Of a stretch of DNA of 64,000 bases, positions 21,257 to 47,692 are shown in pieces (the first letter of the stretch is position 1; each line of letters starts with the position of its first letter). A program made the translations under genes and the position numbers. Where the stretch lies: assembly GCA_947561715.1 (NCBI GenBank), contig OX387198.1, positions 5,084,001 through 5,148,000 on the forward strand, read 5' to 3'. This stretch comes from Ascidia mentula. Taxonomy: Eukaryota; Chordata; Ascidiacea; Phlebobranchia; Ascidiidae. The notes beneath the pieces are model-generated. The model was not told the origin of the DNA. It worked only from the letters and a program-made list of their open reading frames with translations, and did no database searches.

Positions 21257-24200
21257 TTATAGAGTTGACAGTTCATTTTTAGTCTCAGCGGAATTTTCTT
21301 GAGATTCGTAGACCAGAGAATTCTTCTTCGACTTGATGCTGCTTGCTTGCCTCCACAGTTGCAGCACTATAAGTAAAACGGAAAGTGAGTGTGTAGTAGT
21401 TGTAAAAGTAACCTAGTATGGTATACGTATTCCATAATGCATGTGTTGTATTATGTGAAATTTGAAAGACTAAATAAAACAGAAAGACGATAAAAAATTA
21501 ATTTAGCTGTGACAAGAAAAAAGGTAAAAAAATCATCAAGCATATGCGAAATCTTTTGTGTATTTATTATAAACCATCAAGAGCATTTTTAGAGATACAG
21601 GAATTGCCAGGGTCAAATTTTTGTGTGTATTTTTATCATCGAGCTATACCTGCCAGCGCAGTTGAAATGAAAAACACGAGGGTGAACGAGAACAAGACGT
21701 AAAGGGCTGTCTCCGATGACTTCTGATCAAGTTCAAGTCCAAGGAATTTCGGTTTGCCGGTTAGCCCTCCATCTAGTGTTGAGGTTAAGGGGGTGGAAGT
21801 GGTTGTTGTTATGACAACAGCAGGAGATGTTGCTGTGAGCATAATGGTAAATAATATTAGTTAAAGCACGAGTTGAAACGCAAAAAAACATATGTCTAAT
21901 ATTAGTGAATTGTTCGTGATTAGGACCTCGGCCTGATTTATTTTAAAAAACTTATAATCTGGTTTTAAGTTTTAGGTTAACGAACGCCGGATTGATTTCA
22001 TTTAGTTTTATTATTGTCCATAAGGGACTTAGTAACCTTACAGCAGGCTCTTCAGTTATGTTTTCCACTAAATCCTATTCGTTTTGTTAGAATAAAACTT
22101 GTAATGTGATTACTTGCTGAAGAAACACTTTACGGCAAGCTACAACTTACTTGTGGCCCTAGTGGTCGTGGTTGTTGTTGTGTCTGTTATGGGAGCTGTT
22201 GTCGCGGGAGTGGTTGTTGATTCATTGGCAGCAGTGAAACAAGCGGGAAGTCCTTCCGATGGAAATGATTTCTGCATAATCTCTTTCAGGCACAAGGTCG
22301 ATTGTTTCGGGATTCGGGGTCGTTCCGGGTCACTAAAGTTAACCCAGTGTAACCCGAACCGTTCGCTGTAACCTTCCGCCCATTCGAAGTTGTCCATCAA
22401 AGACCACGCGGTGTATCCAATGACGTTTACTCCGTCTTCGTTAATAGCTGAAAACAAAAAAATATGCCAACATCTAACCTTTGGAGATATACCTTGCAAT
22501 GCAATATTTAATGAAACAACAATAGCAACACAATTTTAATTTGAAGTAAAGCATTATCAAGTTCATTCTACAGAAAACAATCACGTTAATCCCACACAAT
22601 GCATGTGTACATCTGTCTGCAGCTCTCATTGACTAATATTGCTCTTTTGCACTTCTAACCACGTCAAGTTTACGATCAAGACTACTGAATGGCTAAAAGA
22701 TACCTTTCAGAACTTCGTTGATGTATCCATGATAAAATTCCTTCCTCCAGAAGTCGTTCAGTTCCACTGATGATCCTTCCTCAGACAATCCGTTCTCGGT
22801 GATGAGGATTGGGGGATTGTTGTATTCGTTTTTAATCCACGATAGAAGGCGTCTGATACCCCAAGGAACCTAACAAGCGACACACATATATATATATCAA
22901 CGCGCTGGTAAGTTTAAAGGTCAGTTTTAATTGTGCAAATGCTATGGGTGTTGGTTTAAGTAAATATTTTTAGCGTTGTAACAAACTCTTCACTTAAAAG
23001 ACACTTATAGCAACGTAGCAAAGTGTGTCCGACCTCCTTTTTTAAATATCCAATTTGTAAGACTCGAAAATACTTGTTTACGCATTCTGTAGGTAGAATG
23101 GTGAACTTTGGAAATTATTTTGGAGTTGCAAGCTTTCCACATAAGGTTGTTTTTTTAAACACGGAGCTCATGGCTTCAAAACGCGGTATGTCAACCTCTA
23201 CATGTCAAACCCAGCACTACATATTTAATATCACAACCTTCTTCAGAAAGAGGAAAATTCAAACCACATTTTCACCTGTTTAAGCCATGCGGATGCAGCT
23301 TGTGGCCACGTGAAATCCGTATCTGTGTTCGCCTCGCGATCCTGATAATATCCGACCGACTGTACCTGGTCTGGGCTGAACGAATCGTATGCCAGGTTTG
23401 TCGTATAATGGTTAAGTCCGAAGAAATCAGATGTTCCCTGGATAAGCGTCTTTTCGTCTTCAGTGAAGGCCGGAAGACGTGATGTTGGTTCTCCCTGGGC
23501 TGCACTCCTTGCGTCAACGTAAGCCTGCGTTGGATATTATCCTGATAAAGTCACTTGCAATGATAGTTTGCCTTATTGAGAAAAGCCACACCGCCCAAAT
23601 AGTAATAAAAACAGATTTTTGAACTTATTACTTCAAAAACAACTCACAACAACAAGATACATTTAACAAAGTGCTAACATTGTTGCTGTTAATACAATGA
23701 GCTGTGTGACTTTGCTACCTTCATCACTTCAGGGTAATCCCCGTTGATCCAGATGGGATGAACCCACCAACCTAGGAAGAATTGCATCACGCGGTCCATT
23801 GCGTCATAATCGACTTCCCGGTAGGTGTTACGCACTTCCGACCAATCAGAGTTGCACGTTATACCAATTTGTCCATTTTGGCTCTGGTATTTGTCGTGGT
23901 ACATCCTATACATTTTAATATTTACGTTATTTAAATGTTTAAACTAAAGATGAAAATTTATGTACAACACGGGGTGAATAAAATTGCAGTAGGTGTAAAC
24001 GCAACAAAACAAAATTAAATTTACTAAAATCAATACATGTTTAGTCCGTTCAAGTAAAGACTATTTTCAGTCTTTTTGTGCACGAAAACGTAACCGCACC
24101 TGTATGTTTTTGCGTGAGCCAGTATGACATTATGCCCTGCTTGATATTCTGCCCGACCCGGATCTTTTACATTCGGTGAATGAACTCCATCCGAGTATCC

Positions 24201-47692: not shown

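Follow-up and report, generated by a model that had tools for sequence, protein, structure and literature searches.

The 64,000-nucleotide stretch of Ascidia mentula DNA analysed here (the window) carries on its minus strand what is probably a single tunicate gene for a membrane-anchored chain of seven GH1 repeats of the lactase-phlorizin hydrolase (LPH) type, in which repeats without the catalytic glutamates would aid folding and the last four repeats, R4-R7, would match LPH domains I-IV. The spliced model runs from 47692 to 21257 and comprises 65 predicted exons in a single open frame of 3,527 amino acids, with a coding length of 10,584 nt including the stop codon, which is the only one and lies at the very end. 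Along the predicted protein, a signal peptide is followed by seven full GH1 repeats, a Ser/Thr stalk, one transmembrane helix and a short tail. The catalytic Glu pair is present in four of the seven repeats (R1, R3, R6 and R7), and both residues are absent from the other three (R2, R4 and R5), referred to below as dead. The model agrees with the first-pass annotation, which had proposed seven GH1 repeats in frame, with one signal peptide and one C-terminal anchor, across 21257..47692; the model start and stop match that span to the base.

Gene model and controls

The model was built with a purpose-written spliced protein-to-DNA aligner, the first template of which consisted of two bacterial GH1 proteins only. 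With this template, a full-length GH1 repeat was recovered in all seven minus-strand regions, at scores of 452-732; after iteration on the repeats themselves, which makes the profile partly self-derived, the same regions scored 713-1163. Under this second, partly self-derived profile, all 16 of the 4-kb stretches taken outside the gene (eight places, both strands) scored 38-73, the seven plus-strand stretches of the gene 42-55, and all ten two-base-block shuffles of the R5 region, the weakest repeat, 43-59.

Modelling repeat by repeat gave zero-length and very short exons, most of which disappeared once the whole gene was aligned in one run at a larger intron penalty. The whole-gene run produced one in-frame chain of 64 pieces across all seven repeats. 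It was then edited by hand: seven of the 64 pieces were dropped or replaced, and eight exons were set manually, covering the signal peptide, the start of R1, the R3/R4 and R5/R6 ends, the stalk, the transmembrane segment and the tail. All introns of the model are GT-AG, with the program enforcing AG and heavily penalising GC donors. Some splice sites are weak (donors 45109, 39541, 30365, 25240 and 36060; acceptor 23494), and the exon boundaries at these positions are provisional. Close to the R2 end, a predicted intron of 147 nt (39005-38859, minus strand) is open in frame and might be retained in some messages.

Exon 1 (47599..47692, minus strand, as are all features of the gene) was set by hand and contains the start codon and the signal peptide, with hydrophobic residues 10-28; its donor, 47598 (GTAAGG, phase 1), joins acceptor 47184. 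The model starts at ATG 47692, and further in-frame ATGs lie at 47689 and 47677. At the other end, the Ser/Thr-rich stalk and the transmembrane helix (residues 3475-3493) occupy 21650..22265, with an intron between them, on hand-set exons 22447-22151 and 21832-21650. The last exon (21257..21366) encodes the short cytoplasmic tail and the stop codon, which ends at 21257; four alternatives were compared for it, and acceptor 21366 is provisionally preferred to 21469 and 21506. Hydropathy in 19-residue windows is highest at residues 3475-3493 (2.25) and second highest at residues 10-28 (1.88), with the next window at 1.12, so that a signal peptide and a C-terminal anchor, as in LPH, appear here as hydropathy maxima of an untrained predictor on hand-set exons. 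The predicted protein has 27 N-glycosylation sequons. Among themselves, the repeats are only 32-55% identical at the protein level, and false duplication by the assembler is therefore unlikely.

Continuity of the seven repeats

The model supports one gene for all seven repeats. The R1/R2, R4/R5 and R6/R7 junctions, three of the six, each lie inside a single exon that is open across the junction (42920..43031, 31599..31737 and 25480..25585, respectively). It is very unlikely, in our assessment, that the model has fused two or more neighbouring genes, possibly of an operon, although operons are in use among tunicates and the R2/R3, R3/R4 and R5/R6 junctions depend on predicted splices, two of them with weak donors (35003, scoring 1.2, and 28833, scoring 0.6). 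Besides the three bridging exons, several features argue against such a fusion. The spliced junctions are joined in matching phase at all three places, across predicted introns of 497, 208 and 162 nt. The first exons of R3, R4 and R6 have no in-frame upstream start codon of their own: no Met is found upstream of the R4 and R6 domains, back to the previous stop, or upstream of R3's own acceptor, where the frame reads stop-stop-FQLFL-domain. Lastly, only one signal-like and one transmembrane-like segment are prominent in the whole protein.

Catalytic residues of the live and dead repeats

All seven repeats match PF00232, with scores between 272.3 and 565.6 bits (cut-off 22.6). R1 with its lead-in (43004..47184; 462.9 bits), R3 (35048..38184; 522.9 bits), R6 (25564..28611; 565.6 bits, the highest of the seven) and R7 (22266..25518; 514.1 bits) all have FNEP and TENG, which in R1 lie at 46226 and 44787. 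The presence of NEP and TENG in these four repeats, as first annotated, is seen directly in the residue alignment. At the same places the dead repeats have LSGP and TGNG (R2, 38755..42958; 477.7 bits), IYDP and HDSG (R4 with its lead-in, 31686..34795; 358.1 bits) and IASP and TASG (R5, 28969..31637; 272.3 bits), R5 being the shortest repeat at 417 residues. These six motifs can be read straight from the DNA in open frames.

We inspected 12 pocket residues, which we take to have roles in sugar binding or catalysis. R1, R3, R6 and R7 keep all 12; R2 keeps seven, and R4 and R5 four each. In R2 both Glu are replaced by Gly, and the Asn preceding the acid/base, the AWSL Trp and the DNFEW Asn are gone as well; R2 retains the Gln, His, Trp, Tyr, Asn of TENG, Glu and Trp. 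The pocket changes in R4 comprise Asp at both catalytic places, W->F and Y->G; those in R5 comprise Ser and Ala at the catalytic places, Q->S and W->H. The proposed loss of both Glu thus holds for all three dead repeats, with the correction that R4 has undergone Glu->Asp twice and its carboxylates stay. Although Asp keeps a carboxylate, R4 would be catalytically dead by analogy, because the first domain (D1) of Aplysia akuBGL, which has Asp at the acid/base place, is inactive when expressed, according to passages of the akuBGL report (PMC10619976).

Conservation outside the pocket

To place the dead repeats on a scale, invariant positions were defined from eight active sequences: the four live repeats, a second GH1 gene of the same genome (on contig C67), the second domain (D2) of akuBGL and two bacterial proteins. 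R2, R4 and R5 keep 56, 46 and 40 of the 61 invariant non-pocket positions, and six, four and four of the 11 invariant pocket positions, respectively. The contrast between pocket and non-pocket positions has nominal p values of 0.006 (R2), 0.028 (R4) and 0.095 (R5). Without the two catalytic Glu the values become 0.060, 0.107 and 0.277, none of them significant, and the pocket-specific loss is partly circular, since its significance vanishes without the two residues by which the dead repeats are defined. For comparison, each active sequence, when left out, keeps between 72/74 and 72/85 of the positions invariant in the other seven.

Outside the pocket, then, R2 is conserved like an active repeat, R4 less so and R5 least. 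In the model, none of the three dead repeats is interrupted over its 417-484 codons, and we infer that they keep the barrel. The first-pass annotation had read the paired Glu loss as relaxed catalysis with the fold retained. Conservation of the fold is supported by the sequence; the pocket-specific part of that reading is weakened by the circularity above, and independent relaxation is only one of the options considered below.

Proposed correspondence with lactase-phlorizin hydrolase

The last four repeats and the C-terminus follow the order dead, dead, active, active, anchor, and are preceded by active, dead, active. As in LPH, two live repeats adjoin the anchor with dead ones before them (R4-R7); R1 and R3, further ahead, are also intact. 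LPH domains I and II lack catalytic residues. LPH consists of four homologous domains, of which III and IV make up the final enzyme, and domain I with part of II forms a profragment that acts as an intramolecular chaperone, as set out in passages of PMC6412902. In those passages LPH shares with our protein a signal peptide, tandem GH1 repeats and a C-terminal membrane anchor, and also the placement of its two active domains next to the anchor with the profragment ahead of them (PMC6412902). Unlike LPH, the ascidian protein has seven repeats instead of exactly four, with active repeats ahead of the inactive pair.

In the mechanism that we propose, the protein would be a type I membrane glycoprotein with a C-terminal anchor, most likely displayed at the gut surface. 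R1, R3, R6 and R7, with the residues described above, would cut beta-glucosides by a two-Glu retaining mechanism; R2, R4 and R5 would be unable to cleave while keeping the barrel. The dead repeats would most likely be folding and trafficking partners of the neighbouring live repeats, like the LPH profragment, with R4-R5 serving the folding of R6-R7 and R2 perhaps doing so for R1 or R3. Judged from position, R4-R7 and the anchor would correspond in order to LPH I-IV, R1-R3 would be additional, and the linker between R5 and R6 would sit where LPH divides its pro-part from the mature enzyme.

This linker (28612..28968) is Ser/Thr/Pro-rich and, in the final hand-set model, 65 residues long, against 16-30 residues for the other five. 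It rests on hand-picked donor 28833 and acceptor 28671; the automatic run used other sites and gave a shorter stretch. We preferred the hand-set exon because R6 then gains a lead-in like those of the other repeats (F-x-Y-x-x-F-P or similar). Set against the LPH reading, R4-R7 form no separate block in the tree described below, where R3 pairs with R7 and R1 with R6. R6 has 193 matches among solved structures; the best 60 are led by 8in1, klotho, beta-klotho and human cytosolic beta-glucosidase and include no LPH.

Tunicates are the closest relatives of vertebrates. An LPH layout in order, with three more repeats, in a tunicate would bear on the origin of the four-repeat lactase gene and on whether the inactive half of LPH predates vertebrates. 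It would also add one more lineage, besides molluscs and vertebrates, that keeps dead GH1 barrels beside live ones, and so make the folding-partner idea open to comparison.

Published relatives

One published layout close to this one is that of the shipworm protein LpMDGH1, which, in passages of its report, has six GH1 repeats, with 1 and 3 dead and 2, 4, 5 and 6 active; it was cloned as one cDNA and purified, and is soluble, without a transmembrane segment (PMC5840672). Like our protein, it strings numerous GH1 repeats along a single secreted chain in which dead and live ones are mixed; it differs in having six repeats, in being soluble and in coming from a mollusc (PMC5840672). In the same passages, its authors describe the six-domain layout as unique and the missing anchor as common among invertebrates (PMC5840672). 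Our protein departs from this secreted kind by its transmembrane-like segment. Functionally, it would act in the manner of LPH or of the shipworm protein.

Dead-live GH1 pairs are described, in passages of PMC10619976, in Aplysia kurodai akuBGL and Corbicula CjCel1A, where a chaperone role was proposed; in akuBGL, overexpression succeeded with the dead domain and failed with the live one. Both have a dead GH1 domain followed by a live one in a single chain, as here; they differ in having two repeats and in being digestive enzymes (PMC10619976). In our alignment akuBGL D1 keeps the nucleophile Glu, unlike R2, R4 and R5. For the R1 exon, and for R6 within the best 60 of 193 matches, the top hit among solved structures is 8in1, which we take to be akuBGL because its numbering fits the D192 and E675 named in passages of the paper (PMC10619976).

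Two points of novelty raised by the first-pass annotation are accordingly anticipated. The mixing of live and dead repeats, offered as new relative to vertebrate LPH, was already in print in 2018 for LpMDGH1 (in passages of PMC5840672), and the idea that a dead GH1 neighbour acts as a chaperone had been put forward for akuBGL and CjCel1A (in passages of PMC10619976). What is new, as far as limited searches show, is the number of seven repeats, the anchored form in an invertebrate and the tunicate host. Seven repeats exceed those of any GH1 protein in the passages on relatives, the shipworm protein having six (PMC5840672). Neither a seven-repeat GH1 protein nor a tunicate LPH-like gene appeared among the titles listed by searches of an open-access library, including Ciona and ascidian topics, which is weak evidence of novelty, as predicted database proteins lie outside its scope. 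Passages of two further papers mention LPH only as a rabbit signal peptide (PMC12633465) or in the reference list (PMC7360587).

History of the repeats

In a tree of 14 sequences, R3 pairs with R7 (SH-aLRT/bootstrap 96.8/82) and R1 with R6 (84.2/72). Without constraint, R2, R4 and R5 group weakly with akuBGL D1 and the klotho domains KL1 and KL2, the base of the group receiving 65.5/61 and 64.1/47 in two runs; akuBGL D1 drops out of this group once the catalytic columns are removed. Forcing all seven repeats together costs 21.2 log units (15.6 without the catalytic columns). Monophyly of the seven is not rejected by the AU test (p = 0.077, or 0.107 with the catalytic columns masked), nor by KH or SH, and is excluded by the RELL proportion and expected-likelihood weights. 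The AU test also allows R2, R4 and R5 to be forced together (p = 0.409; 0.490 with the catalytic columns removed) and R4 to be forced among the active repeats (p = 0.308; 0.226 with the catalytic columns removed). Pairwise, the dead repeats are not specially close, at 42.5% for R2-R4, 36.0% for R2-R5 and 32.6% for R4-R5 versus 46.0% for R2-R6.

The grouping of the dead repeats may be a long-branch effect. We dropped a single shared death as a conclusion, given its weak support, the alternatives that the AU test allows and the lack of pairwise closeness. On the sequences at hand, the deaths could each reflect independent relaxation or could descend from one old dead domain. It is a tentative possibility, which we consider doubtful, that the dead repeats go back to a single GH1 domain that was already dead, and already neighbour to a live one, before the mollusc/chordate split. 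In that case, duplication of dead-live blocks would have lengthened the tunicate chain, and dead GH1 domains would have persisted for more than 500 million years as obligatory partners, with those of klotho as another branch.

Nine of the 48 intron positions recur in at least two genes or repeats. Six of the seven repeats (all except R2) have one phase-1 position in common with the second GH1 gene; one position is shared by R2 and R4 alone, and others by R3 and R4 and by R3 and R6.

A stretch of about 120 nt in the last exons of R3 (35212-35093) and R7 (22427-22308), both minus strand, is 90% identical (108/120), with dissimilar flanks. This likeness, which falls in the DNFEW sugar-binding segment, looks like gene conversion between two active repeats. 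The R3-R7 pairing in the tree would be inflated to that extent, because part of the likeness is apparently recent.

Roles of the dead repeats

By analogy with LPH and the molluscan pairs, a chaperone function is the most likely role of the dead repeats. Its main rival, for R2 especially, is that dead repeats are sugar-binding modules holding the enzyme on its polymer, which we rate as rather unlikely. R2, with the seven sugar-pocket residues listed above and most of the invariant non-pocket positions, would be the best suited to such a role, and the shipworm authors, too, propose substrate interaction for dead repeats (in passages of PMC5840672). The pockets of R4 and R5 are more eroded, through the substitutions beyond their catalytic places, and R2 itself is missing the AWSL Trp and two Asn; the residues that R2 keeps are deeply conserved across the family and may be structural. 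The dead repeats could also be passengers of tandem duplication, kept since removal of a barrel would disrupt the chain. The degenerate state of R5 (272 bits, 417 residues and 40/61 invariant positions) fits this explanation, as does the finding that, with the two Glu set aside, none of R2, R4 and R5 shows a significant difference in retention between pocket and non-pocket positions. It is nevertheless improbable, given that all three dead repeats have remained open over their full length in the model and that R2, at 56/61, retains its non-pocket positions like the left-out active sequences.

A more distant reading takes the protein as a co-receptor for a protein ligand. Klotho and beta-klotho are type I membrane-anchored proteins. 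They share with our protein the tandem GH1 build on such an anchor and the missing catalytic Glu, and they rank next after 8in1 among the solved structures (best 60 of 193). They are, on the other hand, hormone co-receptors of two domains instead of seven, and klotho, the one of the pair in our alignment, has no GH1 domain with an intact catalytic pair, KL1 and KL2 each lacking one catalytic Glu. As all catalytic residues are kept in four of the seven repeats here, a klotho-like role is highly improbable. The folding role remains our preferred reading of the dead repeats.

Genomic context

The window is part of contig C2 in a genome of 195.8 Mb and 79 contigs. A PF00232 profile search of this genome, with the best 48 candidates scored and counts being lower bounds, gave at least 41 matches in two places: the present locus, where the minus-strand exons match one after another, and the single-domain GH1 gene on C67 (L016, C67:13351459-13353727, plus strand). 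The C67 gene has both catalytic Glu intact, is 49-52% identical to R3, R6 and R7, and is the sole other GH1 gene among the matches listed. In a Pfam scan of 10 of the 98 open reading frames listed in the window, four matched: a ZIP zinc transporter (825-1454, plus), a sodium/sulfate symporter (6018-6725, plus), a glycosyltransferase 49 (54531-55271, plus) and a sodium neurotransmitter symporter (57586-57999, minus).

Two further features of the genome fit a tunicate, probably an ascidian: its mitochondrial code and its cellulose-synthase-like loci. The mitochondrial contig C79 (L014, L015) has 16 AGA/AGG codons in cox1. Under the ascidian code (table 13) these are glycines and yield GGFGNW and similar motifs; in the vertebrate code they are stops, and the invertebrate code (serine) also leaves the frame open, all on our assumptions as to the glycines expected in cox1 and the meaning of AGA/AGG in each code. 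A search with ARAGORN under the bacterial code over half of this contig returned no tRNAs. C79 measures 19,461 nt; a mitochondrial length of roughly 15 kb is expected, and the excess is perhaps repeat or overlap. At two further loci, L017 (C71) and L018 (C52), where three of the five open reading frames scanned matched at each, a cellulose-synthase-like glycosyltransferase sequence is followed a few kb downstream, on the same strand, by GH6 sequence, an arrangement typical of tunicate cellulose synthase.
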